Shown: positions 164 to 46,801 of the stretch, piece after piece
Numbering within the stretch: position 1 is the stretch's first letter
How the letters are laid out: each line of letters starts with the position of its first letter
Source of the DNA: Dysidea avara
Taxonomy: Eukaryota > Porifera > Demospongiae > Dictyoceratida > Dysideidae
NCBI RefSeq assembly: GCF_963678975.1
Contig: NC_089279.1
Location: 34,911,297-34,975,296 of the forward strand
Direction of reading: 5' to 3'
Length of the DNA stretch: 64,000 nucleotides
The notes under the pieces: generated by a model
The model's database searches: none
What the model saw: only the letters and a program-made list of their open reading frames with translations
Told to the model about the DNA's origin: nothing
Program-made: the position numbers and the translations under genes

Positions 164-301
164 TAGCTACCTCACTTCTAAGGATTTCTGTTTTCATTAC
201 TGAAGCAAACTATTTACTGGTGTTCAGGTCGCTTAAAAACTGTAGTGGGCACAACTAATTCCCTCCTAGCAGAAATTCCTTACCGTAATTTATAGGCCGT
301 T

Positions 302-553
302 GCTATTCGTACGACGATACGTATGAATAGCTCACGTGCTATTCGTACGACGATACGTATGAATAGCTCACGTGCTATTCGTACGACGATACGTATGAAT
401 AGCTCACGTGCTATTCGTACGACGATACGTATGAATAGCTCACGTGCTATTCGTACGACGATACGTATGAATAGCTCACGTGCTATTCGTACGACGATAC
501 GTATGAATAGCTCACGTACTATTCGTACGGTAACGCACTAAAAAACAACAAAA
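302..553. repeat. Subterminal array of 36-bp palindromic units in MULE 1
   Basis: About seven tandem copies of a 36-bp unit start at 302, 338 and every 36 bp after that. Each unit runs from CTATTCGTACG to CGTATGAATAG and is an imperfect palindrome built from the terminal inverted repeat sequence, followed by a CTCACGTG-like spacer. One matching unit lies at the opposite end (about 6033-6066). The last copy is degenerate, and a stray partial copy sits at 586-600. Subterminal repeats of this kind are often transposase-binding sites, which is an inference here. Confidence 0.85.
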
Positions 554-889
554 ACTAATGGCAGAAAAGCTATATATTCGTACGACGATGGGGTACACAT
601 AGCTATCAGGTACAGCTACAACTTGAATAATCCAGTAAAATGTTCAATATATATAAGACCACCTAGCATTCAGTGACATGCACATTAAATAATTCTGACT
701 ACACTGAAATTTTAGTTTAGAACAGCTTTGATGTAATTTGATAGCAACACCTCAACACAGCTATACTGTATTGTTCAGTATATCAGTAGGTATGATGATA
801 ATTATGTTGACAGTGTACACAAAAAGACACACATACAAAGCAAAGCAAACAATTATAAACAAATGTTCAATCAGAAACATGATCAAGTA

Positions 890-1876
890 TTATTCAGAGT
901 CAGAATCAAATAGATATCCAAAGTACTCTTCGCATTCTTTGTAGTTACAGAACCACATTTCCTTTTCTGAATTTATCTTCTTTGCTTGTTTTATTGTGAT
1001 ATTCACACATGTGTGATGGTATAAGTTATCACAAATATAACATTTCACCATACAGGGCACTTCTTCTGCAAACGGCTTCCTTGACATGTGCTCTGAGACA
1101 TTTGGCAGTCTGCACTGGTAATAAACATTCAACTTTTTAAGCATAGCCCTTTTCTCCTTGGTTTTTGTACATGGGAAGGGAGTAATCTTGCCAGCTTCAA
1201 AGCAATTAATAAGATGACTGCGGATTTTCTTGTGGTCATAAAGGCATGATGCTGGATTTCTGCCAAAACAAAGATCAGTCAAAAAAGCAATAGCGTACAC
1301 CCCACAATCATCAGGGCTAACTTGCATTTGCACCTTCTCTAGATGGACTTTGATTTGTGCTGATCGTGTATTGCAAATGGCAGCAATTTGTTTCAAAACA
1401 TGATATGTTGGTTCAGTGAAGATGCTGTCATATACGTAAACTTCATTATCTGACACAGCTTTGATTGCCACCCAGTGATCACAGCCAGTGTGCAACACTT
1501 GACAGTAAGCAAATCCTGCGTAACCTATCATCCAGTCAAACTTTTCAAACATAAAACATTCTCCAATGGCTGGAGTTGATAGCCCCTGCAAATCAGGGAA
1601 TTGGTCACGTAAGAGTTGACTAGCAGCATTAATGTGATCATCGTCAAGCTTGTCACCTTGCTTAATACTGCCAATAAGCCTTGTAAATCTTTCAATAACA
1701 TCATGCTGACAACGATTACGATTATTCACTTTTCTCCTTTTGCGATGATGTACTTCAGGGCAGTGCTTGGATTGCTGTTTATCTTCAATTGGTGACTGTG
1801 CAGTGGGCTGCTGTTTTTCTTGAAGTGGTGACTGAACAGTAGGTTGCTGTTTATCTTTAAGTGATGACAGTATGAC
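890..1876 (-). CDS. MULE 1 Ulp1-type (C48) cysteine protease plus second PHD-like finger
   Basis: This terminal exon follows a TTAATAG acceptor. After the duplicated KQQPTVQSPLQ-type linker and basic HHRKRRK it encodes a C48 peptidase domain. Catalytic landmarks are His in GCDHWVAI, Asp in VYVYDSIF, Gln in VQMQVSP and Cys in DDCGVYAIAF, in the order and spacing of Ulp1/SENP SUMO proteases. The C terminus carries a Cys/His cluster (YYQCRLP...CMVKCYICDNLYHHTC...WFCNYKEC), a second PHD-like finger. The protease may process SUMO or a SUMO-like protein in the nucleus or cleave the element's own polyprotein. Neither role is shown by the sequence. Plant MULEs that captured Ulp1 domains (Kaonashi/KI-MULE group) are the closest known parallel. 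Confidence 0.85.
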   Translation of the reverse strand, partial: VILSSLKDKQQPTVQSPLQEKQQPTAQSPIEDKQQSKHCPEVHHRKRRKVNNRNRCQHDVIERFTRLIGSIKQGDKLDDDHINAASQLLRDQFPDLQGLSTPAIGECFMFEKFDWMIGYAGFAYCQVLHTGCDHWVAIKAVSDNEVYVYDSIFTEPTYHVLKQIAAICNTRSAQIKVHLEKVQMQVSPDDCGVYAIAFLTDLCFGRNPASCLYDHKKIRSHLINCFEAGKITPFPCTKTKEKRAMLKKLNVYYQCRLPNVSEHMSRKPFAEEVPCMVKCYICDNLYHHTCVNITIKQAKKINSEKEMWFCNYKECEEYFGYLFDSDSE

Positions 1877-2053
1877 CTATTAAAAAAGATGATGCAAATG
1901 AATTAGTATTACCATGGTCCACACTTGTTGAGCCCTTTGTGTGTTTAGATAATTTAAAATTTGGATAAATGAAACCAATTCATCTATTTCAGAGCCCTGC
2001 TCAAGCACTCCAATAAAATGCACATCATGTTGACAACAATGACAATTACTTAC

Positions 2054-2272
2054 TTTTCTCCTTTTGCGACGATGTACTTTGGGGCAGTAGTTGGATTGTT
2101 GCTTATCTTGAAGTTGTGGCTGTACAGTGGGCTGCTGTTTATCTTCAAGTGGCGACTGTACAGTGGGCTGCTGTTTATCTTCAGGTGGCGATTGTACAGT
2201 GGGCTGTTGTTTATTTTCAAGTGGCGACTGTACAGTGGGCTGCTGTTTATCTTCAAGTGGTGAATGTGCAAT
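2054..2272 (-). CDS. MULE 1 repeat-linker exon (SPLEDKQQPTVQ repeats, basic end)
   Basis: The exon is 219 bp, exactly 73 codons. It lies between a TTTTATAG acceptor and a GGAGAAAA/GTAAGT donor and is in frame with both neighbours. It encodes five near-identical 12-residue units (SPLEDKQQPTVQ) and ends in HRRKRRK, a probable nuclear localisation signal. The start of the next exon (1876) repeats this architecture with three more units and the same basic end. The two exons therefore look like an internal exon duplication. DNA in this stretch is a 36-bp tandem repeat, so open frames in other phases here are shadows. Confidence 0.65.
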
Positions 2273-2685
2273 CTATAAAAAAGACAATTTGTAATACAGT
2301 GATCCTCTATTATCCAAACTTGCTGGGCCCTCATGGGTGTGTTTAGACAATTGAAAATTTCATTCATTTATATCAGACCTACTAAATCACTCTAATAAAA
2401 TACACAACAGTTACACTTGTCTGAAGGAACAATATTTTTGTGGGAAACTGTAAACCTCCATTATTAAGTTTTAGTGCTAGATATGGTATCAGTAGCACCA
2501 AGATTCCTTTGTAAGGTTGTGTAACATGGTTTTTAAAGGTGGGTGCCCTTCATTTTCAGCACCACTGTATTGTTTGATACAACACTACTGAACTGTACCA
2601 TGCTTACTCATTTTATAACTACATATATGCAAATAAGTTCACCAAACTTTACTTACATATCCTACTTTATTCACAATGTCATTAC

Positions 2686-3593
2686 CTTGGTATCAGTGTT
2701 GTTCATCCTTGCTTGAACTCCATAACACAGACGACAAAACCACACTGCTTTCTTGGGTGCAGAGGTCAATCCCACACAATTCAGATGATACCAGTTCAGA
2801 CACGATTCACAAGCAACAGAAGTTGAAAGTGAAAGATCTCTGCTGCACGTGTAAAAATTCCATTTCGGGGCATTTTCCAATTCCATCATTGCATCAGTGA
2901 CCTTACTCCATGCACCATCAGTAAAAAAATCTTCAACCAAGACCCAGTTGACGTTTTCATCCAACAAGTTGGACTTGAGATGCAAACTATTACCTATTTC
3001 ATTAGATTCAAGCCTTTCACCACGCAGAGCCTTTTCAATTAAGTGGTCCGGTAACATCCAACTAAGTATTTGTCTTTGCCTTTCTGCATTAGGTTTTAGT
3101 AAAAACTTCACTGGACGTTCAATACATTTTTTCTTCTTGGGCAATCCTATGACAGTTAAATTAGCCCCCTTAGGTCTACCTCTTTTTTTAGTTTTGGGTG
3201 GAAGCGCTATTGATGTTAGGTCAATAAAATCAGGGGTTGGTTTGTTATTCATTAGATCTACATCAATTGGATTGCCACTGTCAGAAGATATAACTGGTAG
3301 GTTGATACTGTCAGTGGGTATAGTAGGTGGATTGTCACTGTCAGCGGGTATAGCAGGTGGATTGTCACTGTCAGCAGGTATAGCAGGTAGACTGTCACTG
3401 TCAGCAGGTATAGCAGGTGGATCGTCACTGTCAGTGGGTACAACAGATGGATTATCAACAGGAAAAACAAAAGCATTGCTACGGTCAGCAGATATGGCTG
3501 GAATGCCACTGTCAGAACGCATGACATATGGAATATCAGGAAGTATGTCACCTGAATTCTCACTGAGATCAGCTTGGCAGTCACTGTCATCAT
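2686..3593 (-). CDS. MULE 1 AT-hook and PHD-finger exon
   Basis: This open frame carries, in order, an acidic proline-rich repeat (six or so copies of a PPAIPADSDN-like unit), an AT-hook (KKRGRPKG), a second basic cluster (GLPKKKKC), and a PHD-type finger. The finger reads YTCSR...VACESCLNWYHLNC...WFCRLC, giving Cys4-His-Cys3 spacing. It ends at a CCAAG/GTAATG donor that joins in phase to the exon at 2272. It overlaps the end of the transposase exon in a different frame. AT-hook and PHD modules suggest targeting to chromatin, perhaps to methylated histone H3 tails. That role is inferred from the domains. The repeat unit varies in sequence and is the probable site of length change. Confidence 0.7.
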
Positions 3594-3601
3594 GTATGCA
3601 G

Positions 3602-5100
3602 TCAAGTGTTATTGGATTGGCTATCAATAGAAGGTATATCAGATATATGATAAGGGAAACCCGAGAAGTCATCTTTGTCAAGGAGATCATCAGACATATG
3701 GTCAACCTTATTGTCTTGTTGATGGTCAACCTCCAAGTCCTCAATGCATGATTCTTCAACAACTACAACCTTCACATGCTTGCCTTGCTCCCATGATCTC
3801 ACAATCTTCTCCAGGCAATCAACAGCATATGAAAATTCTCTCGTAGATATATCAGAGGCAATTGAAGCTAATCTCTGTGATAAATCAAATACTTTACGAT
3901 ATTTTTCATGCTGTGACAACACCCTGACCACTGGCAATCTATCAACAGCACAGACCTCAACATTTGCTGAACAATCATTGGTGGTTGAAAAAACACGATG
4001 ACTACTTCTATAGTAATCACGGGTCCATCTTACTGCACATAGTTTTGCTTCAAAAATGTCTAGCTTGGCTTGTGCTCGTAATGCGAAAATGTGTTTACAA
4101 GGCAACTCCATTGCTGTATAAAACCCACAATTACACCCACAGTCTGTTGTGAACAATTTCTTTCCATTAGAATAAACATCAATAGAAGAATGATCTCCAT
4201 TATTAACAGCAATTTTCACCCTGTCAGATGACCCAAATTGTTTTACCACAAATGAGTATGCATATGGTGTCAAAAATTGCTGGTATTGGGAAAGGCAGTT
4301 GTTAGCAGGAAATACATTCACAGCACACTTTTCAAATACTGTAACAGCCCGATGATCTCTTTCCAATGATAACGAATCAAAGCATTTCATTAAATCTCGG
4401 AAAAAGGTGAGTAGAGAAGAGTGCTTTGTGACAACGCTTTTTATCTTTTGATTGATACTCTCAATTCTGTTGTTTGTACTGTTTAGATAGTGACATGTTT
4501 CTCGTTTAAGACCTTCAACCCACTGTTCCCTGATTCCATGCCAATTATCATTAAAATACTGAATTACTTGGTTTAGCTTTGTGTCCTTCAATTTCTGATA
4601 AAATTTTGAATATTCTTCTTCATCTCGAGCATACACAAGCTTGTTTATTATTTCCAAAACAGCAACCTTTTGTGCAGCATTGATACCAACTTTTTCAGGG
4701 GTAATTTCATGTCTGAATGTTCTTAAAGTGTGGAATAAGCATATCATCAGTTCAGCACCGGGGATCTTCTGTGCAAATACATCTCTTTCTGTAAAATCTT
4801 TGTCTGCCATAATGCATCTTGTATTGGACGTATCATTGTGCTTAATGAATACATCCATTAAATGACTGATGGTCACCTTGTCCTCATGCACCACCAGCAA
4901 TAAAGCTATCACTTCACTCTCTCCATTTCCATCCACAACCATCATTATGTACAGTGGCATTCGAAGATTGTTCAATTTATAAGTTGCATCAATAAGAACT
5001 AATTCAGGATACCGTGCATATGTGTTCTTCCATCCCTGAGTTTGAAAATACACACTGGATAAAGTATCACTTTCATCTTTTGACACTTCCACAATTGCAC
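3602..5100 (-). CDS. MULE 1 transposase catalytic exon with SWIM zinc finger
   Basis: This exon begins after a TTTTTATACAG acceptor and stays open for about 500 codons. MULE-type DDE landmarks appear in order. The first Asp is in LVLIDATYKLN. The second is in RCIMADKDFTE. The C-x2-H motif is in LMICLFHTLRTF. The Glu is in NNRIESINQKIKSV. A SWIM finger follows (CGCNCGFYTAMELPCKHIF, pattern CxC...CxH), as is typical of MULE transposases. The enzyme would cut and join element ends in the nucleus. The tail is acidic and stops at 3602. The next domain continues in another frame from about 3593, so there is either a small unrecognised intron or a frameshift at this junction. Confidence 0.88.
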
Positions 5101-5166
5101 CTGTATAAAAATAGACCAATGAATTAATTTCAGCAGACGACACACATTTTACTTGTAATTACTTAC

Positions 5167-5876
5167 CATTAACCTTCTTCATTTCTTCTACTAGTGTGCT
5201 AACATTAATAACTTCGGTCTTCTTGTTCTTGGAAGCCAAGTTATGCAGATCTTTAAGGATGACCACCTTTCCCGTTTGCTTAAAGAAGTGCTGCTGTACC
5301 ATCTTCTTGTTAGCCTTGACTCCAAGCATATTGTCAGCCTCTTTTTCACTGGGCTCACTTAGCCTTCGTTGTCTAGGATGATGCTTGAAAGCCTTCTACA
5401 CGACAATATTACAGTGTGTTAATGTATTCAATCAAAACATACCCCACTAATCTCGTGGTTGTGGCTATTCTCAATGGCTTTTATAAACAAAACTTGGCCA
5501 TTTCGATTACACCTAACTTTCACACGAAACGGGCACCCCATTTGAAAAGTCCTACAAGAAAAACACAGAGACCAATGTCACCACTGAAATTCTAGAAACT
5601 CCTACTCGCACCATAGGCGGGTCGCACTTACTTCTGGTTTGGCCTTTTCCCGGTAGAAGTCGTCTTGAAATCTTTTCCACCGTGGTGACACGCAAAATCT
5701 ATATCAGAATAAACCAAGTCTTCATTAAACTTCTTCTTTGGTGCCCGTGTAGCCAACGCTGATTCAATGGTTCTTGAATGTCTAACGTACAGTTGCACAA
5801 ATTCAGCTTGCTGAAATGCAGATATTGCATCGCAGAGATCCTCATAACTTTTAAACTCATCCCCACACCGAAGCAT
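5167..5876 (-). CDS. MULE 1 transposase gene, exons 1-3: FAR1/WRKY-GCM1-type zinc finger
   Basis: Three exons are supported by splice sites: 5876-5632 (donor GTAAGT), 5551-5443 (donor GTATGT) and 5395-5167 (donor GTAAGT). Each joins the next in frame. The start is the methionine of MLRCGDEFKSYEDL. Exon 1 supplies FACHHGG and exon 2 supplies MGCPFRVKVRCN and NSHNHE. Together these give the Cys-His...Cys...His-x-His arrangement of the FAR1/FLYWCH-like DNA-binding finger found at the N terminus of MULE transposases. Exon 3 is basic and helical and links to the catalytic exon. The domain probably binds the terminal repeats. The splice model is inferred from consensus sites only. Confidence 0.75.
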
Positions 5877-6093
5877 TCCTAGTCAGATGAACCATAGATT
5901 CTATGGATGAACCAAACGTAGAGCAGACGTTCAAAACGTACGCGCCAAAAGCCACGTGTAGTTACCGGAAAGCAAAATTCGTATAACTATTCCGTTTATT
6001 TGGAATCGCGTGATCTCCGTACAAATAGTTCATCGACTATTCATACGTGACTGGCGTACGAATAGCCGCTCCGTAATTTATAAGCACATGCTC

Positions 6094-7654: not shown

Positions 7655-8330
7655 GGGTGCTTGTAGAGAGTTCAATTACAAACAAATAACCCTGCAGAGA
7701 GTTCAGCTAGAAACAATCATCAGAATCTGGTAGAGAGTTCATCTATAAGCAAATAACCCTGTAGAGAGCTCAGCTACATTTCCAGTCACCCAGTAGAGAG
7801 ATCAGCTGCAAACAAGTTATTTGTAGGGAGTAATTGACATGTAATAATTGTATGTATTATATATATAATTTGTACATTTACTGATAAAATCTGAATTAAT
7901 TAATGTATTTAAAATCTGCTTCATCCTTTTCTTCTTCTGGTGGTAAAGAAAAAAAGATGGGTTTAAAAAGCCCTAAAGCTGGCCATAGGCTGGCTTTAGC
8001 GTATACAAATACAAAAAGAAGTGAAATCTAATCCAAAACAGCCATACTGTAAAAAAAGAGTGTGGCCCTCAGAAAAACTAAGGTGAAAAAAGATATTAAA
8101 TCCAAGGTGGCGGCCAAGAAATGTTTGTGATAGTAGGCTAATGGTAGAAATTTTAATAACGACAATTCAGGTGAATTTTGAGCCACTTGAATTGTTGTTA
8201 TTAAAATTTGACCATTAACCTACCGTCACAGCCATTTTTTGGCCGCCACCTTGGATTTCATATCTTTTTTCACCATAGCTTTTCTGAGGGCCACACTATT
8301 TTTTACAGCTTGGCTGTTTTGGATTAGATA
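7655..8330 (+). repeat. Composite repeat copy 1 (minisatellite + linker + hairpin + foldback)
   Basis: Four to five degenerate 30-bp units (TAGAGAGTTCAGCTACAAAC type, 7655-7810) are followed by an AT-rich linker (TTTGTACATTTACTGATAAA), a hairpin (AAGCTGGCCATAGGCTGGCTT at 7976-7996, 20 bp of it paired) and a foldback (8023-8330). The same order occurs at 37473-40248 and, interrupted, at 49760-58612. This is the shortest minisatellite version of the three. Confidence 0.75.
8023..8330. mobile_element. Foldback MITE, arms about 145 bp
   Basis: The two arms (starting AAATCTAATCCAAAACAGCC and ending with its complement) are inverted copies that pair around a CAGGTGAATTTTG...CACTTGAA centre near 8170-8190. 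The arms share a GGTGGCGGCCAAGAAATG block. Other copies are at 39921-40248 and 49760-49975. No coding sequence is present. Confidence 0.8.
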
Positions 8331-10077: not shown

Positions 10078-10290
10078 ACACTGTAAATCGTTAAAACCAG
10101 CCAAACTAATCCTACGAGTTCGTTCTACGGCTAGGTCGTATAAACACTTACTGATCGTCTCAGTGATCACGAAGCTTTTTAAACACGACTCCACTAAGAC
10201 AGCACGACTGATCACGTGCGTGACACTGTAAATCGCTAAAACTAGCCAAACTAAGCCTATTAGTTCGTTCTACGACTAGAATCATGGCTG
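10078..10290. repeat. Duplicated dispersed repeat, CACTGTAAATCG family
   Basis: Two direct copies of a roughly 60-bp unit (CACTGTAAATCGTTAAAAC ... GTTCGTTCTACG) lie at about 10079-10138 and 10226-10277. A third, diverged copy is at 14436-14493. They may be part of a longer DNA repeat into which the LINE at 10338 inserted. Confidence 0.55.
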
Positions 10291-10338
10291 TCTCCCTCTA
10301 TAGTTTCAAGTGAAATTTTCCCCCAACAATATCAGGTA

Positions 10339-10848
10339 TACCGTAAAGACAGATTCGATGGTTACGGGGGTGTATTCATTGCTTGTCACAATTCATTGTT
10401 GTCTACTGCACTTGAATACCATAGCACATCTCTATGTGAATTGATAGTATGTAAAATCCAGTTAGCCACAGGCCCTCCACTTATTATTTGCTCTGTGTAT
10501 CGCCCACCAAATGTAGATATACCATATTTAGAAAATCTTTGCACTGTCCTACGTGATATAACAGATCACAATCCTGATTCTGTTGTGTGGATTGCAGGTG
10601 ATGCAAATTTCCCAAATATAGATTGGGACTCCTACTCAGTTAGTGGTAACAATTATCATGTACATCTGTGTGAAACTTTTCTCAACTTCATTGAGGATTG
10701 TGGCCTAACACAAACTGTCAACTTTCCAACTAGATATGCAAATACTCTTGATATTTTCCTAACAAATCAACCATCATTAGTACTTTGTTGTAAACCATTG
10801 TCAGGGATTAGTGATCATGATATCATGTATGTGAAGTCTACTGTATAA
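10339..10848 (+). pseudogene. LINE endonuclease, C-terminal part
   Basis: The frame opens upstream of the first methionine with YRKDRFDGYGGVFIAC and continues through ICSVYRPPN, the catalytic Asp region WIAGDANFPNIDWD, and LSGISDHDIMYV. These are the conserved C-terminal blocks of LINE apurinic/apyrimidinic endonucleases (SVYRPP, GDxN, SDH). The N-terminal metal-binding residues are missing because of truncation. A stop at 10846-10848 separates it from the linker that follows. Confidence 0.8.
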
Positions 10849-11028
10849 GTCAAACAACAAAGCAATCCCTCAGTGCGATCTTATAAACTCTGGAACAGGG
10901 CAAACAACGATATCATCAGTGAATACATTACAAGATCTAGTGAACAGTTTTTAGAGGAACATGATATGGATACACAAGTTGATGTCTTATGGAAAGTGTT
11001 CAAGGAAATGTGTTAAAAGTGTCTAGAT

Positions 11029-12706
11029 ATGATTCCATCCAGAACTTATGAACCTGGCCATAGTCCCCCTTGGATGAATCCCGCCATTAAAAGTCTATCT
11101 CACAGGAAGCAAAGACTATATAATTTGGCCCGACATTCCAAGTCTAGTGATGCCTGGCAAAAATATAGACAGATAAAGAAAGAAGTTCAAAGGGCATGTC
11201 GGCAATCCCACAACTCCTATATTCAACACTTAGTCACCCCTGGAACACATTCTACAACTAAGAGGTTATGGAGTTACATTAAGAGTCAAAAGAAGGACTA
11301 CTGTGGTATACCACCATTACTAGAAGGAGACACTCTGATCTCTGATACAGCAACCAGAGCAAGCTTATTGAATGACTATTTCTCTTCTGTCTTTGTTAAA
11401 GAAGATTTTAAGTTCTGTACCACATATTGAAAATTTACCTATCCCACTAATGGAACCTATCAGTATTAATCCAGAAGGTGTTAAAAAGTTATTAGAAAAC
11501 CTGGAGGTAAACAAAGCTCCAGGTCCAGACCAAATTCCACCCCGATTTTTAAAAACCTTTGCAAGCTACATTACGCCATTTCTTGTGCTGATCTTTAGGG
11601 CCTCTTTGCATCAAGGTCACCTTCCATCTGAATGGAAACATGCTACTATTGTGCCTGTTTTTAAAAAGGGAGATCGTAAATTACCATCTAACTACCGCCC
11701 AATATCCTTAACATCAATCTGTTATAAAGTTCTAGAACACATCATCTATTCTTCCATCAGCTCTCATTTGAAAAATCATCAACTTATTCGAGAAGAACAG
11801 CATGGTTTTCAGAAAAATAAGTCTTGTGAAACACAACTGATCTACACAATTCATGAATTTGAAACAATACTTAATGACAGTGGAGAAGTGGATGCTTTAT
11901 TTCTTGACTTTAGCAAAGCTTTCGATAAAGTTCCACATGTAAGACTTCTTCAGAAACTTGAGCATTACAGAATTTGTCCACAACTTGTCAATTGGATAAA
12001 AGATTTTCTTGGACAAAGACAACAGCAAGTAGTTCTGAATGGTGTAACTAGTGAGCAGTGTGAAGTTATCTCGGGCGTACCGCAAGGTACAGTACTTGGC
12101 CCTTTACTATTTACTTGTTTTATTAATGACCTACCAGCTCTAGTGAACTCTCAGATACGACTCTACGCTGATGATATACTTATTTTTAGACCGATTTATT
12201 CAAATGAAGACACTTTAGTATTGCAGAGAGACCTTGATGCCATAGTGAGGTGGAGTGAAGACTGGCAAATGTTTTTCAACCTTAGCAAATGTGTACACCT
12301 CAAGATCACTAACAGGATATTAACAACTAACTCAACATATTTTCTGAAACAACATCAAATTTGTAGATCTAACAGTGCCACTTACCTGGGAGTAACAATA
12401 GATGAACACCTGAAATGGACAAACCATATCCAACATGTTACCTGTAAAGCAAACTCAGCCAATGCCTATTTGCGACGTAATATTAGCTCTTGCACTCAAC
12501 AAACTAAGAAGCTGTGTTACCTAGCAATGGTACGTCCTATCTTAGAGTATGCATCAACTGTCTGGTCTCCATACACTAACAGTAACATCTACAAGTTAGA
12601 AATGGTCCAACGAAGAGCTGCAAGGTTTATTACAAACAATTATTCACCCTGGGCTAGTGTACCTGAGATACTAGATCACCTGAATCTACCAACTCTTGAA
12701 CAGTGA
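11029..12706 (+). pseudogene. LINE linker and reverse transcriptase
   Basis: The linker frame (11029-11430) has the basic HRKQRLYNLARHS region that precedes the polymerase in CR1/Jockey-type ORF2. The polymerase frame (11372-12706) shows the ordered motifs: NKAPGPDQIPPRFLK, HATIVPVFKKGD, NYRPISLTS, FLDFSKAFDKVPH, ISGVPQGTVLGPLLF, LYADDIL and YLGVTIDEHLKW. The two frames overlap, so one frameshift separates them. A stop at 12704 splits off the C-terminal tail, which continues in frame at 12716-12961 (MMYKMVHRQVH ... TIKLWNNL). Confidence 0.88.
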
Positions 12707-16113: not shown

Positions 16114-16986
16114 CTTGACACTTACACATGGAAAGACTTGAAAAAAGAGATACATAAAAGACTTGGAATGGATCCAAAAATGCAAACACTAAAAGTTGGA
16201 ATTAAAGATATCAAAGGAGAAAGTGACAACGAGATAGTGACTGATGATCCCTACATAACAGACAATTTCACTATAGTTCTAAAAACAGGTTTGCATGGAG
16301 GTCAGAGTTGCCTGGTGTGCTCTGATTACACTACTTTTTTACCACCATGTGGATGCGAAACTGCTTACTGTAGTCAGTGTCTAGTGGACAGCTGTAGCAG
16401 CATGGTTGATCACATAAGATCAATTTTGGCATGCCCTAATTCTGATTGCAAACAAGAATGGGATCCTCTTGAAATTCGACGAAGAGCAAAATTTAATGAT
16501 TCACAATTCAATGAATTCTGTAAAACACTGGCCATTACTTTAGTCAACAGAGATCCATATATTAGTGATTGCCCTGGCTGTGGACGTTACTATGAGCGTA
16601 AAGATCAAGCAAAGAGTAGTGTCTACTGTATCATGTGCGCTAAGGAGGGGAGGCCAGCACGATATTGCATTCAATGCAATTTAACATGGAAGACTTCAAG
16701 TAGCAGCACCAACTGTGGAAATCCTAATTGCAACTCCACTAGTGTGCTCAGTTTGCTTCCACTAGCAAAGCCAAAACAGATTAGTTGGATAAACAACTGT
16801 CCTTCAATAAGGTTGTGTACTTCGTGTGGTACAGTGATAGAACATGAAGAAAAATGCAAAGAAATTAAATGCATCGCATGTGGCAAAATTTTCTGCTTTG
16901 TTTGCCTTATTGATTGGCGCAGTGGTCATCTATCTGACCAATGTAAACCAGCCCCAACGCAGACCACAGTTCCTCATAAAAAGTAA
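16114..16986 (+). CDS. UBL-RBR type E3 ubiquitin ligase-like protein (partial gene)
   Basis: The exon begins after TCACTGTTTAG and is open from there. The first ~60 residues (TYTWKDLKKEIHKRLGM...) have the helix-and-strand pattern of a ubiquitin-like domain. RING1 follows: CLVCSDYT...PPCGCETAYCSQC...ACPNSDC. An in-between-RING region carries CPGCGRYYER...YCIMC...YCIQC. RING2 reads CTSCGTVIEHEEKCKEIKC then IACGKIFCFVCL, with the Cys after EEK in the position of the RBR catalytic cysteine that accepts ubiquitin. UBL followed by RBR is the parkin-like order. It would move ubiquitin from an E2 to a substrate through a thioester. The gene ends at TAA 16984-16986. It is the clearest host-like gene in the window. 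The 5' part and full exon structure are uncertain. Confidence 0.75.
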   Translation, partial: LDTYTWKDLKKEIHKRLGMDPKMQTLKVGIKDIKGESDNEIVTDDPYITDNFTIVLKTGLHGGQSCLVCSDYTTFLPPCGCETAYCSQCLVDSCSSMVDHIRSILACPNSDCKQEWDPLEIRRRAKFNDSQFNEFCKTLAITLVNRDPYISDCPGCGRYYERKDQAKSSVYCIMCAKEGRPARYCIQCNLTWKTSSSSTNCGNPNCNSTSVLSLLPLAKPKQISWINNCPSIRLCTSCGTVIEHEEKCKEIKCIACGKIFCFVCLIDWRSGHLSDQCKPAPTQTTVPHKK

Positions 16987-24049: not shown

Positions 24050-25105
24050 ATGGCTGATGGTGGAAGTAAAAGAAAGCTAAACGCAGATTCAGTGTCTCCT
24101 GAGGCTAATCAAGCAAAGAAGCACCAAGGAGGTTCGCCCCCAATCAATGGTGGTGATGCTTTTGCGTCCCTTCCTGGCGCGCAATGTCCACACTGTGGTG
24201 AGGCTTGTCTCTCAGAAAGTAAGGCTGTCCAATGTGACTTGTGTGGAATATGGGTTCACGCTGTATGTGAGGGTATTTCAAATGAATTATGATAAGTTCA
24301 ATGATGTGTGTGCAAATGTTAGCAGCTTGTCATATTATTGTGAGGCTAATCATTGCAACAGCCGTATTAAACAACTTGTTCATGCCCACTACGCCAACGT
24401 TGACCAGCAGGTCGACCTCCCTTCTTTAAGAACATTACAAGCTGAACAAACTAATTTACACCAGTTAATTTCTGAAGTGTCCACGAAAGTTGACAACTTA
24501 AAGTCTAGAAATGATGTTCTATATAGTGAAGTCGAGACAGCTTCAGAATTAGTCAGTCCACCTATCATACAAACTGAGTCACCAGCATCAACGTTCCTTA
24601 CGGTTGCTAAAGAGTTAGATGACAGAGAACGCAGAAGGAATAATGTGATAATTTACAACCTACCCGAAACAAGTCCATCACAGGATGAGAAATGGTTTGT
24701 GGACCTCTGCAAAACTGTCTTTGATATTGGCATAAAAGTTACCAAGATCCTGCGATTGGGCAAGCCTGCTGAAGAAAAGGCTAGACCACTACTTATTGTT
24801 TTGGATAATTTGTCTCACAAAGAATTTATAGTTTCCCACTCCTACTACCTCCGACGTCACTCCCAGTATACGAATATCTATGTCTCTACTGACATGACCA
24901 AATTTCAGCGTGAGAAGCACAAGAAACTAGTACAAGAGCTAAAGCAAAGGAGAGAAAGGGGTGAGAAATATTTAACAATATTTAATGGTGAAATTGTGCT
25001 TAGAAGAGATCGTAACCCAAAACACGGAACTCAGCCAATGTTACAACCAGTTCTACAGCAATCGGTAACCCCAATCATGCTTGATCTTAATGAGGAGTGT
25101 ACCTG
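24050..25105 (+). pseudogene. LINE ORF1 (PHD-like finger, coiled coil, RRM-like domain)
   Basis: The ATG at 24050 gives MADGGSKRKLNADSVSPE, then a PHD-like finger CPHCGEACLSESKAVQCDLC...WVHAVCEG. A frame change at about 24285 moves the finger's last ligands into the next frame (SYYCEANHCN). The second frame continues through a coiled-coil stretch to DDRERRRNNVIIYNLPET, the start of the RNA-binding domain found in CR1/L2-type ORF1 proteins, and ends at 25105. ORF1 proteins bind element RNA and act as chaperones. ORF2 starts close to the ORF1 stop. Confidence 0.75.
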
Positions 25106-26823
25106 ACAGAGGTCAAATTAGAGAGGATATTTTTGATAACCCTAATTTAAGCCAAATTTTTGTTAGCAACTTTCTTAATCAAACTGATAATTGTCTACTT
25201 TCAGATGATGACACTATTATTAGTGACTTGGATACTCAGTTTAGTAATCCTGATACATTGTATAGTGAACTTAGTAATACTTCTTTAGAAGATAACAGTG
25301 ACCTTGACTCGTCTGACCTAGTGGATTCTGACCATCAAAGTAACTTAAACTCTAACAATTCCTTGAATCTTTTGCTGATTAATTTACAAAGTATTTTGAG
25401 TAAAAAAAAAAAAAGTTTTTGGGAGACGCTAGACGATCACACCCCTGACATTGTGATTGGTTGCGAGACCTGGCTCAATTCATCAATCCTTGATAATGAA
25501 ATTATGCCCGAGAGCTATAAACTGTACCAAAAAGATCGTGAAGATGGATATGGTGGAGTGCTGATTGGCATTAGCACTACCTTATCCAGGAAACCTGTTG
25601 ATATTGGTACACCTTGTGAAGTGTGTGCTGTCAGTTTGCAGCTGTCTCATGGTCAGGAACTTATTATAATTGGTGCGGACTGCCTAGCAGAGATGTTGAA
25701 TATCAGCAAAATCTATGTAAAAGTATTTGTGACATTACAGCATCACGACCCAACTCGTTTATTTTCTGTGCTGGTGACTTTAATGTACCAGACATAGAAT
25801 GGACCAGTCATTCTATCGTTTCGCACTGATACCCATTGGATATTAATCAACAAACTCTCAAAATGGTAGATGACTGTTATTTTACCCAACTAGTGAGTAC
25901 TCCCACTAGAAATGAAAACATTCTTGATATCGTTTTCACTAATAGACCATCTCTTATTAACTATTGTAAAGTTATACCTGGCATTAGTGACCATGAAGCT
26001 GTCTTGACCTCTTTTATGACACAGGTAGTTTACCACAAAGGAAGTGAGCGTAAGCGTTATTTATGGAACAGGGTCGATTTCCAAGAGATGAGTATTGAGA
26101 TGACAAGGTTCACTGCATGGTTCACTGATCATTTTTGTATTGATACTCCAATTGAACACTTATGGTTTCATATTAAATCTATGCTCTTAAACCTGCTAGA
26201 TAAGTACGTCCCATCAAAAATGGTGACAAATAGTAACAGACAGCCTTGGGTTAATCGCCATATTAAGCAACTTGGTAGACGGAAGAAAAAGTGCTACAAA
26301 AGAGCTAAAGTAAGTAATTCACCATCAGACTGGCTACATTATAAATCATTTAAAAAGGAGATGCAGAGAGAATGCAGAAATGCACGTAATTCTTACATGA
26401 CTCGATCACTGTTTAACCCATTTAGAAGTGGAAGAAAGAAGAATTTTTTCCGTTACATTAAATCTCTCCGTAAAGATAATTGTGGTGTGCCTATGTTACA
26501 GAACGAAGGGGTTACATATACTGATAATTTGGATAAAGCAGAAGTATTAAATAAACATTTTTCCTCAGTGTTTACTCATGATAATGATTCACCAGCTCCA
26601 CACCTGGGTCCTAGCCCATACCCTGATCTTCCATTATTTGAAACATCTATTGAAGAAGTATATACCCTATTGACACAAGTCGATCCTTTCAAGGCTACAG
26701 GTCCAGATGGTATCCCTCCCAAGCTATTGAAAGAGATGGCATTTGAATTATCTCCTAGTTTAACATTGCTGTTTAATTCATCATTGAAATAAGGAGAGGT
26801 TCCACACGACTGGAAAATAGCCT
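25081..26823 (+). pseudogene. LINE ORF2, endonuclease and linker
   Basis: The first frame carries an acidic leader and then NLLLINLQSILSKKKKSFWE, VIGCETWLN and YKLYQKDREDGYGGVLIG, the N-terminal blocks of AP endonuclease (N, E, then RxDGxGG). The frame changes after LSHGQELII. FCAGDFNVPDIEW appears in another frame (25623-25829). PTRNENILDIVFTN and VIPGISDHEAVLT appear in the third segment (25836-26792), which also includes the basic linker GRRKKKCYKRAKV. Two frame changes and stops at 25829 and 26790-26792 mark decay. Confidence 0.82.
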
Positions 26824-26825
26824 CT

Positions 26826-28148
26826 GTGACCCCTATATTTAAGAAGGGCAATCGTAGTAACCCTACAAACTATAGGCCAGTTTCATTAACATCTGTGTGT
26901 TGCAAAACTCTGGAACGAATAGTACACACTAATATTATGGAACATCTGAATAGTCTGAATATACTCTCAAAGTGTCAATACGGTTTTCGTGCCAAACACT
27001 CTACTGAGCTACAATTGTTACACACAGTTCATGACTTAGTGTCAAACCTTAACCAGAAAACTCAAACTGATGCCATCTTACTTGACCTATCTAAGGCATT
27101 TGATAAGGTGTTACATCGTTATCTCTTACATAAGCTGCAGCATTATGGAATACGTCATGAGATCTTAGAATGGACTTCATCCTTTTTGAGCAGCCGCACT
27201 CAATATGTTACTTGTAATGGTTCTCAATCATCACCCATCGATGTTATTAGTGGAGTGCCCCAGGGCACTGTCCTCGGACCCTTGTTATTCTTAGTTTACA
27301 TTAATGACTTACCTGATTGTGTATCATCTTCTTGTGGCTTGTTTGCTGATGATTGTCTGCTCTATAGACCGATACATACTACAGATGATAGTCGTTTCTT
27401 ACAGGAGGATTTGTTACGAATTGAAGAGTGGGCTAATAAATGGATGATGACATTTAACACAGATAAATGTGAAGTATTACAAGTTACTTTAAGTAATCCA
27501 AAACCCACAAGCTATTTCCTGTACAATAATCAACTAAGAATGGTTAGTCATGCAAAATACCTTGGTGTGATATTGGACTCTAAGATGAACTTTAACAAAC
27601 ATATTACCACTATTTGCAGAAAAGCTAATAGTGTATTGGCGCTTCTTAAGCGTAATCTGTATCATTGTAATTCTCAAATACGAAGCCAAGCCTATTTCTT
27701 GTATGTGAGACCAATACTAGAATACACATCAATAGTTTGGGCACCATATACTAAGACTAACATTGAGAAGCTTGAAAGTGTTCAGCGACGTGCTGCCAGA
27801 TTTGTGGTGTCTGATTATTATTTTTCAAGTAGTGTTACCAGTATCTTGAATGAGCTTAAATGGTGTAGCTTGGAGGTTAGAAGACAAGTAAGTAGACTGA
27901 TGATGTTTTATAAGATATTGCAAGGTTCTGTCGCACTAGAACTACCCTATGAGATATCTCTCATCGACACTGTTACTAGAGGGCACAATAGAAGATATCA
28001 AACACCTTTTTCAAGAATTGATATACACAAATTCAGTTTCTTCCCAGCTACTGTCAGATTGTGGAATAGTTCACCTGACTCAGTTGTTAATTTGGATTCC
28101 CTTGAAGCATTCCGTAGATCTGCTACTGATTTCTTAAACAATTTATAA
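26826..28148 (+). pseudogene. LINE ORF2, reverse transcriptase and C terminus
   Basis: After a single stop at 26790 the polymerase continues in the same element: TPIFKKGNRSNPTNYRPVSL, DAILLDLSKAFDKVLH, ISGVPQGTVLGPLLFLVYIN, LFADDCLLYRPI, YLGVILDSKMNFNKH. The C-terminal block (EYTSIVWAPYTK, QRRAARFVVS, TVRLWNSSPDSV) ends at 28148, just before the (ATT)n tail. All polymerase motifs, including the FADD aspartates, are retained. Confidence 0.88.
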
Positions 28149-37472: not shown

Positions 37473-39512
37473 AGATCGAGATACTCTAATAGAGCAGTCA
37501 TCCTAATAGAGCAGTCACCCTGAACAGAATTCAAGAGATCAGTTAGAAATAAGTAACCTGTATAGAGATCAGCTACAAACAAATCACCCTGTAGAGAGTT
37601 CAGCTACAAACAATTCACCCTGTTCAGACATCAGTTAGAAGAAGTTTTCTTGTAGAGAGTTCAGTTACAAACAAATCACCCTGTTGAAAGATCAGCTAGA
37701 AGATGTCACCTTGTAGATAGTTCAGTTACAAATAAACCACCATGTAGAGAATTCAGCTACAAACTAGTGACCCTGTAGATACATCAGCTAGAAGAAGTTA
37801 CCTTGTAGAGAGTTCAGCTACAAAGAAACCATTCTGTAAAGAACTCAGCTGCAAACAAATCACCTATACAGAATTCAGCTACAAACAAATCACCCTGTAG
37901 AGAGATCAGCTAGAAGAAGTTACCTTGTAGATAGTTCAGCTACAAACAAATCATCCTGTAGAGAGATCAGCTAGAAGAAGTTACCTTGTAGATAGTTCAG
38001 CTACAAACAATTCACCCTGTACAGAGCTCAGTTAAAAGAGGTTTCCTTGTAGAAAGTTCAGCTACAAACAAATCACCATGTAGAGAGATAAGTAAGAAGA
38101 AGTTACCTTGTAGATCGTTCAGCTACAAACAATTCACCCTGTAAAGAGATCAGCTAGAAGAAGTTACCTTGTAGAGAGTTCAGCTACAAAGAAACCATCA
38201 TGTAGAGAATTCAGCCGTAAACAAATCATGTATAGAGAGTTCAGCTACAAACAAATCACCCTGTAGAAAGATCAGCTATAATAGAAGAAATCACCTTGTA
38301 GAGAGTTCAGCTACAAAGAATCTATCATGTAGAGAGTTCAACTACAAACAAATCACCCTGTAGAAAGATCAGCTATAGAAGAAATCACCTTGTAGAGAGT
38401 TCAGCTACAAAGAAACCATCATGTAGAGAGTTCAGCTACAAACAAATCGGCCTGTAGAGAGATCAGCTAGAAGAAATTACCTTGTAGAGAGTTCAGCTAC
38501 AAAGAAACCATCATGTAGAGAGTTCAGCTGCAAACAAATCACCTGTAGAGAGTTAAGCTACAAACAAATCTCCCTGTAGAGAGATCAGCTAGAAGAAGTC
38601 ACCTTGCAGGGAGTTCAGTTACAAAGAAATAAACCATGTAGAGAGTTCAGCTGCAAACAAATCACCTGTAGAGAGTTCAGCTAGAAACAAGTCACCCTGT
38701 AGAGAGATCAGCTAGAAACAAGTCACCTTGTAGAGAGTTAGCTACAAAGAAACTACCATGTAGAGTTCAGCTGCAAACAAATCACCCTGTAGAGAACTCA
38801 GCTACAAACAAATCGCCCTGTAGAAAGATTAGCTAGAAGAAGTTACCTTATAGGGAGTTCAGCTATGAACAGATCACCCTGTAGAGAGTTCAGCTACAAA
38901 CAAATCACCCTGTAGAGAGTTAAGTTACAAAGAAACCACCATGTAGAGAGTTCAGCTGCAAAAAAAATCAATCACTCTGTAGAGAGTTCAGCTAGAAGAA
39001 GTCACCTTGTAGATAGTTCAGCTACAAACAAATCACCTGTACAGAATTCAACTACGAACAAATCACCCTGTAGAGAGATCAGCTATAAGAAGTTACCTTG
39101 TAGATAGTTCAGCTACAAACAAATCTCCCTGTAGAGAGATCAGCTAGAAGAAATTACCTTGTAGAGAGTTCAGCTACAAACAAACCACCATGTAGAGAGT
39201 TCAGCTGCAAAGAAATCACCCTGTAGAAAATTCTGCCAGAAACAAATTGCCCTGTAGAAAGATCAGTTAGAAGAAGTTACCTTTTAGAGAGTTCAGCTAC
39301 AAAGAAACCATTCTGTAAAGAGCTCAGCTGCAAACAAATCACCTATACAAAATTCAGCTACAAACACATCACCCTGTAGAGAGATCAGCTAGAAGAAGTT
39401 ACCTTGTTGATCGTTCAGCTACAAACAATTCACCCTGTAGAGAGAGCAATTAGAAGAAGTCACCTTGTAGAGTGTTCAGTTACAAAGAAACCACCATGGA
39501 GATTTCTGTAAT
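37473..39512 (+). repeat. 2-kb minisatellite, 30-32 bp unit (composite repeat copy 2)
   Basis: More than 60 copies of a unit like GTAGAGAGTTCAGCTACAAA followed by CAAATCACCCT alternate with a variant containing GATCAGCTAGAAGAAGTTAC. The alternation gives a higher-order period of about 60 bp in places. The array starts at a CTCTAATAGAGCAGTCA motif and is followed by the AT-rich linker, hairpin (39876-39900) and foldback of the composite repeat. No coding sequence. Confidence 0.88.
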
Positions 39513-42975: not shown

Positions 42976-43116
42976 CCGCTGTGGCTATTGACACCGATCG
43001 TCAGTGTCAATAAGGGCCACAACGAACTATTGACACCGGCAGTAAATCACGTGATGTGTACAGACGTGAATTATCTCGCCAACACTTGATTGTTGGCAGT
43101 TCAGCAATAACCTGTA

Positions 43117-43771
43117 ATGTCTTCGTCGGTGGATTCTGAGGACGACCCAGAGGATTCAGGAAATGATGTTGAAGAAATAGTGGACAGCAATGGTGACTTG
43201 ATGAATGGTGTTCAGGTTGGCAGAAAGTTCAACTCGTTTGAAGAAGAGCAGGAACTACTTGGGAAGTTAAGAGCGTATAATCACCCTATGCACGTGTTTA
43301 ATAGTCAAAGCGTAGATAATTACAACAAGAGACGTGCAAAGGCCAGGGCACCTTTAGAACCCATTGATAGTAAATGGAAATTCTCCTACTATCTAATTGC
43401 ATGTGTCCACTTCGGCCAGCCCAGGAAAAGAAACAAAGGAATCACATGCAACCAGCGCCATTTAGCCATAAGCACTACAACAGGAGTTCCCACAAGCAAC
43501 AGTACTTTCCTGCCAGTTTCATGTCATTAAGTATTTTTTTAAGCAGATTGTTGATCTTGATGTGGCCAAAGAAAGTCGGGAGCAGGCCAGAGAAACCATC
43601 AGGAGGATTGTTAATGCTGACAGTGAAGAATCATATACTGCATTGAAGCAAGACCTCTTTGACAACACCAACACTGCATTTAAAGAATATTTTATCAAAA
43701 ACTGGGATGTTTGCAGAGAAAAATGGGTTACTTTTCTTCGCGACAATCAGTTTTGCCAATACAACAAATAA
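43117..43771 (+). pseudogene. MULE 2 transposase remnant, N-terminal and helical parts
   Basis: The frame from ATG 43117 (MSSSVDSEDDPEDSGNDV) is acidic, then reads FNSFEEEQELLGKLRAYN and FSYYLIACVHFGQPRKR, matching the start of a FAR1-like finger as in MULE 1 (FACHHGG). A second frame (43550-43771) gives AKESREQARETIRRIVNADS...EYFIKNWDVCREKWVTFLRD. That corresponds to MULE 1 residues after the second catalytic Asp (KVAVLEIINKLVYARDEEEY...WHGIREQWVEGL). Everything between, including both catalytic aspartates, is absent, so an internal deletion of roughly 600 bp removed the catalytic core. Confidence 0.7.
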
Positions 43772-43961
43772 TGGGCTTGAATGCCATACTTACAAGTTAA
43801 AAGGTGTTTACTGAAGAATTTTCTACATGTAGTACAGCCAATGATGGTATTAGTGATGTGTCAACAATTAATGCAACTTGCACAGCGTATTCAGCTGAGA
43901 GGATTGTTGAACAGTTAAAGCTATCACGTTCTGTGATGTATACTATTTCAAGTGGAGATTG

Positions 43962-44455
43962 GTGATGGTGTTTTTAAGGCAGTTTACAAATCCCGGGAGC
44001 ATTGTGTGTCTCTCATTGCTAATAACTGCTCTTGTGGTTTTTCAAAGGTGATGGGACTCCCCTGTCGACATATATTTGCGGTGAGAGCCTCTCAAAATTT
44101 ACCAGTATTTGAAGTGCAACTTGTAGCAAGAAGGTGGCACAAAGATTTTCAGTTATTGATGGATCCATCTGAAGTATCAGATGATCGTGATGAAGAAGAC
44201 AAAAGTGGTGCATTACAAGTGTCTTCACTTATCACTAATTTTCCATTGAAGAGCACACTTTCTAAAAATCAGAAGTATAAGAAAGCTCTGGGGTTAGGTC
44301 AGAAGTTGGCAGCACTCAGTTCAGAGTGTGGCATGGCTGAATTTAGAAGAAAGGTTGTTGTTCTAGAGTCATTGTTAAGTTACTGGGAGAGAAATTGTGA
44401 TGTAAAAATAGTCCCTGTTCAGGAGGATGAGGCGGTGGTTCTAGTAAGTAAATAT
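43962..44455 (+). pseudogene. MULE 2 SWIM zinc-finger segment
   Basis: The open frame reads NNCSCGFSKVMGLPCRHIFAVR, a SWIM finger (CxC...CxH) aligned with MULE 1's CGCNCGFYTAMELPCKHIF. It then follows the same order as MULE 1: FEVQLVARRWHKDF, LSKNQKYKKALGLGQKLAAL and LESLLSYWERN. A GGTTCTAGTAAGT site at about 44435-44447 looks like a splice donor. The similarity runs over 150 residues and proves common descent of the two elements' genes. Confidence 0.8.
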
Positions 44456-44489
44456 TTTATTTGCATTGCATATTTATTCATACATTTAA

Positions 44490-44850
44490 TACCACAGGAG
44501 AATGCAGTGCCACAGGAGAGTGAGAACATTTTGATACCCCAGGAGACTGAGAGTACTGCTATTCCACAGGAAGATGGGAGCACCTCCATGCCTGAGATCA
44601 TTCCATAGGAGGCTGAAAACACCCCAATGCCACAGAAAACTGAGAGTAGGACTATTCTTCAGGATGCTGAGAACACCTTGATGCCCCAGGAAACTGAGAG
44701 TACAGTTTCACAAGAGACCGAGAACACTTGTATACCACAGGATATTGAGAAGACAATGCATCATTTGCAAGAGCTACAGAATGCCACCAGTGTTAGCAAT
44801 TCATCAGTACATAATGATGCTCAACTTCTTAAATCCACTGAAGGACATGC
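44490..44850 (+). pseudogene. MULE 2 PQE(T/S)E repeat region
   Basis: After a ACCACAG acceptor-like site the frame gives about eight copies of an 11-12 residue unit (PQETESTxIPQE). An internal stop at 44606-44608 interrupts it. MULE 1 has a different acidic proline repeat (PPAIPADSDN) at the same place in the domain order, so the linker evolves by repeat turnover. Confidence 0.6.
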
Positions 44851-44943
44851 AAGTTTAACTACTAAACTTTACATTTGCCTAACTACTATTATATCTCTAT
44901 GATAAGATACATGGGTATGTATTAATCGTGATTGTATGTAGTT

Positions 44944-45251
44944 CTTTAATGTATAGTGCTTAACTATGTTCTCTCTTTGCATGGCTGTTTGCAACTCTCT
45001 GTTCTGTGTGAGAATATTAAGATGAAAGAATATATAAAGCCAAAAGGTCGACCTAAGCAAGGCAGCAAGCTGTGGCCTTCCAAGAACAAAAAATGGCCTT
45101 TAATGTATAGTGCTTAACTATGTTCTCTCTTTGCATGGCTGTTTGCAACTCTCTGTTCTGCGTGAGAATATTAAGATGAAAGAATATATAAAGCCAAAAA
45201 GTCGACCTAAGCAAAGCAGCAAGCTGTGGCCTTCCAAGAACAAAAAATGGC
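44944..45251 (+). repeat. 154-bp tandem duplication containing a basic exon
   Basis: Two direct copies (44944-45097, 45098-45251) differ at a handful of bases. Each contains an acceptor-like intron end and the start of a basic exon, YIKPKGRPKQGSKLWPSKN (GRPKQ resembles an AT-hook). The duplicated exon parallels the exon duplication in MULE 1. The second copy continues into KKWQREKENQPCGNAQPV...RPKRRKIC, a nuclear-signal-like stretch. Confidence 0.8.
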
Positions 45252-45530
45252 AGAGAGAAAAGGAGAACCAACCATGCGGTAATGCTCAGCCAGTAATACC
45301 AAGGCCAAAGAGACGGAAAATATGTCAATCTGGAATGGCTGCTAATCGAATGAGAATTAAGAGGGAGTTAAAATGAAAAGAATCTGACAAGAGTGGTGAA
45401 TCACTGAGTGATGTTTGCATTGCACTAAGTTCAGATGATGAAGAAGCAGACAGCAGCAAAGAAGTCTTTCCTAATGTAAAGGTTTTTCCTTTAGATTTTG
45501 AGACATTGAAGTCTTCAACTGGCTGGATGA

Positions 45531-46169: not shown

Positions 46170-46439
46170 CTATGGACTGCAAGTCATATACATCTTTCAT
46201 TGCCTCAATATTGTATTAAGTTCATTATTGTAAGCTGTCACATTATCATGACAAACTTCTTTAGCGCATAGTACATGTAGCTAGTATGTACACATGTATG
46301 TGGTATGCTTGAAACGTGTGTGTGTGTGCAGATGAAGTATTCATCCATGTACATATATTATGATAGTCTGCTGACCAGTGGCACTCAGGATGTACTGTCA
46401 GCACTTAGCTAGCTAGGAGTTTAAGCTGATGACATGCAT

Positions 46440-46801
46440 GAATGCATGCAGTGGCCGTTATTCTACATTTGTATATAGAAATGTAGACTATGAATAACGG
46501 TACACCGATCGTCGATGACAATGCATATTGCAAGTGTCGATACAGTATTAAACTAGTTGATGGTCTTTATTGATCAGTGTCGATAGTCATTGGTGGCTTC
46601 TTATTGCCACTTGTCGGTGTCAATAGTCATCTGTGGCTTTTTAATGCCACTTGATCATTTATTGGCTTCTTAACACTAGTCGGTGTCAGCAGTCTTTCGT
46701 GGCTTCTTATTTCCACCGATCGGTGTCAATAGTCATATGTGGCTTTTCATTGCCACCGACGATCGGTGTCAATAGCCGACGATCGGTGTCAATAGCCACG
46801 G
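46440..46801. repeat. Subterminal array in MULE 2, about 40-bp TIR-derived units
   Basis: Seven or eight degenerate direct units of the form CGGTGTCAATAGTC...TGTGGCTT...TTGCCAC. The last two are compact GACGATCGGTGTCAATAGCC copies at the very end. The array is downstream of the genes, as in MULE 1. A hairpin (CCGTTATTCTACATTT ... ATAACGG, 46452-46501) precedes it. The left end has only two such units (42985-43045). Confidence 0.8.

Follow-up and report, generated by a model that had tools for sequence, protein, structure and literature searches.

A decayed MULE transposon with PHD fingers and a Ulp1-type protease domain in the sponge Dysidea avara

We analysed a Mutator-like element (MULE), E1, located on the minus strand at positions 295-6073 of a 64,000-nt stretch of the Dysidea avara genome (GCF_963678975.1, NC_089279.1, positions 34,911,297-34,975,296, forward strand; hereafter the window). 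By its ends, E1 is best read as a complete DNA transposon with a 9-bp target-site duplication (TSD), and its predicted gene most likely encodes, after splicing, one protein of about 1,400-1,440 residues that joins a FAR1-type finger, a DDE transposase, a SWIM finger, an AT-hook, a PHD finger, a Ulp1/SENP-type protease domain and a second PHD finger. On balance, we favour the reading that E1 is a decayed copy of a cut-and-paste sponge MULE family, the single protein of which combines chromatin tethering with SENP-like deSUMOylation. The family is real, conserved and partly known, and a Ulp1-bearing MULE as such is not new.

Structure of E1 and its gene

The features of E1 are listed below in window coordinates, with the strand and a description.

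295-6073, minus: MULE element E1 (flanking direct repeats, inverted termini, sister copies L017, L018 and L021)
286-294, unstranded: TSD, one side, 9 bp (identity reaches 12 bp)
6074-6082, unstranded: TSD, other side
6017-6073, minus: 5' terminal inverted repeat (TIR), about 1.4 units of a 36-bp motif, 80% identical to the 3' array over 50 bp
295-530 (array 301-529), minus: 3' end, with 6.4 copies of a 36-bp TIR-like unit arranged as a minisatellite (99% matches)
5632-5876, minus: exon 1, start codon and ZSWIM3_N/FAR1-type N-terminal domain (Pfam 2.2e-9)
5443-5551, minus: exon 2, remainder of the N-terminal zinc-finger region (GT/AG at the same places in 3/3 close copies)
5167-5395, minus: exon 3
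2686-5100, minus: exon 4, with DDE, SWIM, AT-hook and PHD1
2054-2272, minus: exon 5, with a 36-bp coding minisatellite and a basic RRKRRK motif
890-1876, minus: exon 6, with the second repeat block, Ulp1 domain, PHD2 and stop codon
3590-3630, minus: frame-break stretch peculiar to the E1 copy (no break in 3/3 close copies)
4748-5100, minus: MULE DDE/RNaseH core, with D232, D294 and C315xxH318
4091-4135, minus: SWIM zinc finger, CxC...CxH (Pfam 0.013)
3163-3189, minus: AT-hook core KKRGRPKGA, upstream of PHD1
2721-2862, minus: PHD finger 1, resembling TAF3/ING, with its first zinc ligand replaced (Pfam 5.8e-7)
1178-1717, minus: Ulp1/SENP-type cysteine protease domain (Peptidase_C48 4.8e-5, above cut-off)
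929-1129, minus: PHD finger 2, resembling PHF2/PHF8/EBS in relatives, with its first zinc ligand replaced

The flanks of E1 are identical over 12 bp (283-294 and 6071-6082). Since L017 and L018 have 9-bp duplications of differing sequence and begin with CGGAG, the duplication of E1 was taken to be 9 bp long, with the additional identity due to chance. An earlier note, made from the DNA letters, had placed the element at 295-6070; its start was retained, and the end was moved to 6073 on the basis of the sister-copy duplications. The TIRs and the TSD of about 9 bp agree with the MULE superfamily, for which 8-11 bp are listed in Table 1 of PMC6446971.

Six exons were found rather than the seven proposed in the note, separated by five introns that are all of the GT-AG type and consistent in phase, as it had claimed, and GT and AG are present at all five intron places in each of the three close copies that were spliced on paper (L017, L018, L021). 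The reading path, announced as an almost unbroken one of about 1,390 residues, is 1,400 residues long when read through, with one frame break near position 3604. Given this break and the loss of two PHD zinc ligands, "near-intact" was too generous a description. The regions 2022-2187 and 1698-1863, which correspond to exon 5 and to the beginning of exon 6, are duplicates of about 84% identity; an RKRRK motif and a coding minisatellite with 36-bp units occur in both.

Domains, copies and selection

The domain array proposed for E1 was borne out by Pfam profile searches on the exon translations, together with the retained residues of the SWIM finger. Exon 1 matches ZSWIM3_N (2.2e-9), and exon 4 matches ZSWIM1-3_RNaseH (9.6e-33) and MULE (1.7e-17); the score to PF10551 is 64.1 bits at a cut-off of 27.6, and the D, D, E and CxxH residues of a MULE-type transposase are all kept, with the glutamate (E408) located outside the core, further downstream in exon 4. 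The GRPKGA sequence of the AT-hook is conserved in P0032-P0035, which are four of the five aligned long relatives, and is altered to GRPR in the fifth, P0038. In the modelled helical region between the AT-hook and PHD1, the listed solved structures align mostly at the PHD finger and gave no evidence of a new fold.

The protease domain has both the Ulp1/SENP (C48) fold and the H-D-Q-C active site, with H134, D150, Q185 and C191 of exon 6 encoded by codons that start at 1477, 1429, 1324 and 1306, respectively. PHD1 has its best matches in the Protein Data Bank to TAF3, ING3 and ING1. The first zinc ligand is replaced by F in PHD1 (2856-2854) and by Y in PHD2 (1120-1118), and neither finger of the E1 copy thus has the full C4HC3 ligand set of PHD fingers that read methylated histone H3 lysine 4 (H3K4me). 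Cysteines are present at both places in P0001, an uncharacterized NCBI protein of Dysidea avara that is 98% identical, while P0033 likewise has F at the first-ligand place of PHD1. As to the aromatic cage of H3K4me readers, a tryptophan before YH, a candidate cage residue, occurs in PHD1 of E1 and in PHD2 of many relatives, and is missing from PHD2 of E1, where it is replaced by L, as in P0001.

Further copies were searched for in the species' own assembly (550.8 Mb, 108 contigs). In the PF10551 search, 150 of 410 candidates were scored, and in the exon-6 search, which gave 123 matches, 122 of 904, so that the counts of both MULE and Ulp1 loci are lower bounds; the exon-6 list is a lower bound also because L025, L026 and L028 contain Ulp1 matches that are missing from it. 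Among the 20 best MULE loci, excluding those of the window itself, 19 have PHD1 downstream of the DDE domain, and in nine of these it is followed by Ulp1 and PHD2, in order and on one strand. Ten loci have PHD1 but lack a match to Ulp1 in the flanking DNA covered, and L015 has neither. Weak matches to the PHD2 query in L020 and L027, of which the latter is out of order and probably represents PHD1, were left out of the PHD2 count. L013 has no segment between the DDE domain and the AT-hook region.

At least 14 pairs of MULE and Ulp1 hits, E1 included, lie within 10 kb of each other, and in all 14 the two are on the same strand with the MULE match upstream, as compared to about 0.6 such pairs expected by chance. 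Together with the low E-values, this collinearity indicates that the arrangement of E1 is not due to chance. Absence of the domain order from every other copy would have spoken against the single-gene claim of the note; the order recurs elsewhere in the genome. No scored MULE match was found within 10 kb of 99 of the 113 Ulp1 loci. Among genome and viral contigs, a pattern search for relatives matched 23 and 12 stretches, respectively, none of which was confirmed by tblastn.

Several findings bear on whether all domains are encoded by one gene. P0001 covers PHD1, exon 5 and exon 6 with junctions identical to those predicted here. The L012-L014 family, the synonymous distance of which to E1 is saturated, has an 86-nt intron at the same position between PHD1 and Ulp1; L013 has an open Ulp1-PHD2 exon of 302 residues, and the corresponding exons of L012 and L014 contain stops. 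In L012 and L017, the DDE domain and PHD1 share a frame that is interrupted by one stop, and L014, L018 and L021 have frame breaks. Among seven related long database proteins, MULE, C48 and PHD matches were found in P0039, P0047, P0048, P0049 and P0052, with the PHD match under the Pfam cut-off in the latter four; P0050 lacks the PHD finger, and P0051 keeps the H, D, Q and C in the alignment but has no C48 match.

We compared E1 to L012-L014, which are near-copies of each other. The proportion of synonymous differences is about 0.8 or more, and that of nonsynonymous differences is 0.24-0.28 in Ulp1, in the AT-hook/PHD1 region and in PHD2. These values argue that the protease and the fingers have been held by selection over the time that separates these copies, and are not mere passengers. 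In the clade of P0039 and P0047-P0052, the trees of the transposase and of the Ulp1-PHD part branch alike, with support that is not strong throughout.

Proposed mechanism and alternative explanations

Our best guess at a mechanism, judged from the predicted domains, combines docking to H3K4me with deSUMOylation. The N-terminal and SWIM zinc fingers would bind the TIR motif, which is multiplied by the 3' minisatellite, and the DDE core would, by homology, perform the cutting and joining. The AT-hook and PHD1 may anchor the complex on chromatin, most likely at H3K4-methylated promoters if they act like their nearest relatives, and the SENP-like protease fused to PHD2 would take SUMO or a related modifier off host chromatin or repair proteins. 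The substrate could alternatively be the transposase itself, with the protease acting at the target or the donor site. The suggestion of the note that the element engages SUMO or chromatin silencing is plausible in view of the SENP fold, the catalytic tetrad, the purifying selection and the resemblance of the PHD fingers to H3K4me readers.

A number of observations weigh against this proposal. Each of the four close copies that were spliced on paper (E1 and its sisters L017, L018 and L021) has an interrupted reading path, and the five database proteins with joined domains are known as proteins alone, so that their genes may contain introns. The SWIM match of E1 is under the Pfam cut-off at 0.013, with the CxC...CxH residues retained, and that of PHD2 is likewise under the cut-off at 7.6e-4, as compared to 4.6e-9 in the relative P0017. 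The replacement of tryptophan by L in E1 and P0001 makes H3K4me binding by PHD2 doubtful in this lineage. Fold matches of the Ulp1 domain include enzymes that cleave NEDD8 and ubiquitin, and SUMO is therefore an uncertain substrate. Estimates of dN/dS among close copies are noisy (0.39-1.03 for Ulp1, with very few changes), and 11 of 20 MULE loci are without a Ulp1 match as far as the flanking DNA covered extends, which suggests that Ulp1 is dispensable for some relatives.

The maize transposon MuDR has two genes, and the transposase and Ulp1-PHD2 of E1 could similarly represent separate transcription units of one transposon. The NCBI model P0001 begins within exon 4, ahead of PHD1, and contains no transposase, and the two parts are held apart by introns and repeats. 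However, the same model links PHD1 of exon 4 to Ulp1-PHD2, DDE and PHD1 share a frame in the DNA of L012 and L017, interrupted by a single stop, and P0039, P0047, P0048, P0049 and P0052 are, at the protein level, single database entries with both DDE and Ulp1; we consider the two-gene arrangement unlikely. It is less likely still that Ulp1 acts in cis and cuts the long product to give a transposase and a separate regulator, in the manner of DNA-virus proteases that process precursors, although the linkers between PHD1 and Ulp1 are long and repeat-rich and viral proteases of the same fold are among the matches. The usual cleavage motif, Gly-Gly, occurs once in E1, at residue 66 within the N-terminal domain, and is absent from P0039, P0047, P0048, P0033 and P0001; P0049 and P0052 have one such motif each and P0035 has three, all at unrelated positions.

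The Ulp1-PHD2 exons might also be a captured passenger with no function for the element, like the host-gene fragments in other MULEs, which are prone to pick up such fragments according to the text of PMC6446971 that we consulted, and the Ulp1 match is missing from more than half (11/20) of the related loci. Against this stand the purifying selection that Ulp1 and PHD2 show between families, the almost invariant catalytic residues, the linkage repeated in 14/14 hit-list pairs and the matching, if unevenly supported, branching of transposase and Ulp1-PHD in P0039/P0047-P0052, by which the passenger explanation is largely refuted and now seems very improbable. That the frame break of E1 is a hidden intron or a programmed frameshift, and the copy hence functional, can hardly be entertained. 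There are 43 GT-AG pairs, 35 to 300 nt apart, that would reopen the path, but most of their donors are poor (GTTG.., GTCT..), a few are better (GTAAAG, GTGAGA), and none is GTAAGT or GTATGT as in the introns that E1 uses; a hidden intron was dropped because all three sister copies are without the break.

Related cassettes, known systems and other features of the window

The exon-6 matches in the genome also included very long open reading frames (ORFs). Four of these were examined and end with a Ulp1-PHD cassette; their positions are given within each locus.

L029, 931-4614: uninterrupted ORF, 1,227 codons
L030, 1152-4886: uninterrupted ORF, 1,244 codons
L031, 1220-4810: uninterrupted ORF, 1,196 codons
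L032, 728-4402: uninterrupted ORF, 1,224 codons

All four ORFs end with C48 (above cut-off in three) followed by PHD. Three match the helix-turn-helix model of P-element transposases, just above cut-off, and no MULE match was listed for any of them. As this model is the sole P signal, the label "P-element-like" is provisional; P transposases were missing among the best 60 of 186 profile matches for the long ORFs, and an NCBIfam scan of one long ORF gave nothing useful. No clear terminal repeats were found within the 5.5-5.7 kb stretches of these loci. Two loci with the 1,196-codon ORF have 6,307 bp in common at 99.7% and diverge past the 3' edge, and the element looks like a recently mobile repeat.

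The cassette of E1 scores 233-332 against L029-L032. Its score is 231-237 with the MULE group L025/L028 and 158 with the cassette of the distant MULE P0039. The same cassette is thus carried by two apparently unrelated transposase types in one genome. We tentatively raise the possibility that Ulp1-PHD is a portable cassette that has moved between MULE, P-element-like and, from the literature, Ginger1 elements and does the same job in each, namely docking to H3K4me and stripping of SUMO. If so, it would remove SUMO that triggers silencing or hinders repair. We count against this idea that the L025/L028 score (231-237) is no higher than the lowest P-like score (233), and that the Ulp1-PHD tree, in which a weak branch (64/84) separates the P-type rows from the others, gives neither a direction nor a number of transfers. 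Separate captures from one host gene may have occurred instead.

P0053 (1,516 aa, from a cluster of 41 members) is by its domain matches a putative further Ulp1-PHD carrier, with C48, a PHD match just under cut-off and a weak SprT-like match. The C-terminal part of the Branchiostoma proteins P0040-P0046, which are predicted and mostly polycystin-like, is 27-33% identical to Ulp1 of E1. No C48 match was obtained at an E-value of 0.001 in the two of these proteins that were scanned with Pfam, and they represent either an exonised element or a faulty gene model.

Hydra and lancelet Mutator elements with Ulp1, and Ginger1-9_HM with Ulp1 plus PHD, were described by Bao et al. 2010 (PMC2836005). In the parts of the article that we consulted, the legend to figure 1e refers to an alignment in which Ginger1 and Mutator transposases are compared over Ulp1 and PHD, and a role of the ubiquitin/SUMO pathway in transposition and repair is proposed without a test. 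The statement of the note that PHD plus Ulp1 on an animal transposase is little described hence holds in part. The layout with an AT-hook and two PHD fingers, the sponge family and the evidence for selection were not found in the literature searched, nor was the sharing of the cassette with a P-like element; the combination of a P element with Ulp1 was never searched for. Zisupton was considered as a parent, and no article in the literature searched brought the relevant terms together. Likewise, no sponge Ulp1-MULE was found in that literature, with Repbase reports and most subscription journals outside its coverage.

As described in the same parts of PMC2836005, rather than in Repbase entries, the hydra and lancelet Mutators resemble E1 in having Ulp1 with a Mutator transposase; no mention is made there of an AT-hook or of a PHD finger ahead of Ulp1, both of which E1 has. 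Ginger1-9_HM has a C-terminal Ulp1 and PHD on an animal transposase, as E1 does, but its transposase is of the Gypsy-integrase type with a 4-bp TSD, whereas E1 has a MULE DDE domain and a 9-bp TSD. E1 has neither a Gypsy-type integrase core nor a 4-bp CCGG-like TSD, and its Pfam matches contain no integrase model, the core being MULE and ZSWIM1-3 RNaseH. Plant MULEs with ULP (Hoen 2006; van Leeuwen 2007, as cited in PMC2836005) likewise combine a MULE with a ULP-like protease. Rehavkus elements, which Dupeyron et al. 2019 (PMC6446971) set apart by their PHD finger and by a minisatellite that immediately precedes the 3' TIR, are by their description similar to E1: they are MULE-like and have, besides these two features, a 9-bp TSD. 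Such a minisatellite is present at 301-529 in E1 and at 46577-46797 in E2, a second element in the window. Rehavkus is described in PMC6446971 from arthropods and annelids, and the main text of that article does not contain the word Ulp. Ulp, PHD and SWIM are absent from the main text of a 2026 survey of arthropod MULEs (PMC13359780). The host genes ZSWIM1 and ZSWIM3 resemble E1 over the N-terminal and RNaseH-like parts, as judged from the Pfam models, whereas E1 has TIRs, a TSD and many copies.

Why transposases of different superfamilies repeatedly bear deubiquitinase or deSUMOylase domains is a standing question. The family provides a test case, being an animal element in which purifying selection has acted on a SENP-like active site located between two chromatin-reader domains. 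It has many copies, and a second, apparently unrelated family carries the same cassette in the same genome.

42976-46803, plus: E2, second degenerate element, with SWIM, an AT-hook-like motif, Ulp1 and PHD2

By its domains, E2 is a relic of the same type as E1. Its N-terminal domain match is weak (0.13), and SWIM and PHD match at 1.9e-5 and 9e-8, respectively. Ulp1 was recognized by tblastn with P0017 (7e-11), with no Pfam match and with the catalytic Gln lost, and the AT-hook-like motif was recognized by eye. A DDE core was looked for in E2, and none was found. The element has an 8-bp duplication, and the minisatellite inside its 3' end has units of about 40 bp.

Other repeats in the window include a satellite with a monomer of about 31 bp, common by eye to 7662-7815, 37557-39502 and 57373-58598, of which the two large arrays are oppositely oriented. 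ORFs resembling those of non-LTR retrotransposons, with endonuclease and reverse transcriptase motifs seen by eye, are located at 10264-12706, 25069-28148 and 50273-52714. An ORF at 16114-16986 has an IBR domain and possibly encodes an RBR-type ubiquitin ligase.

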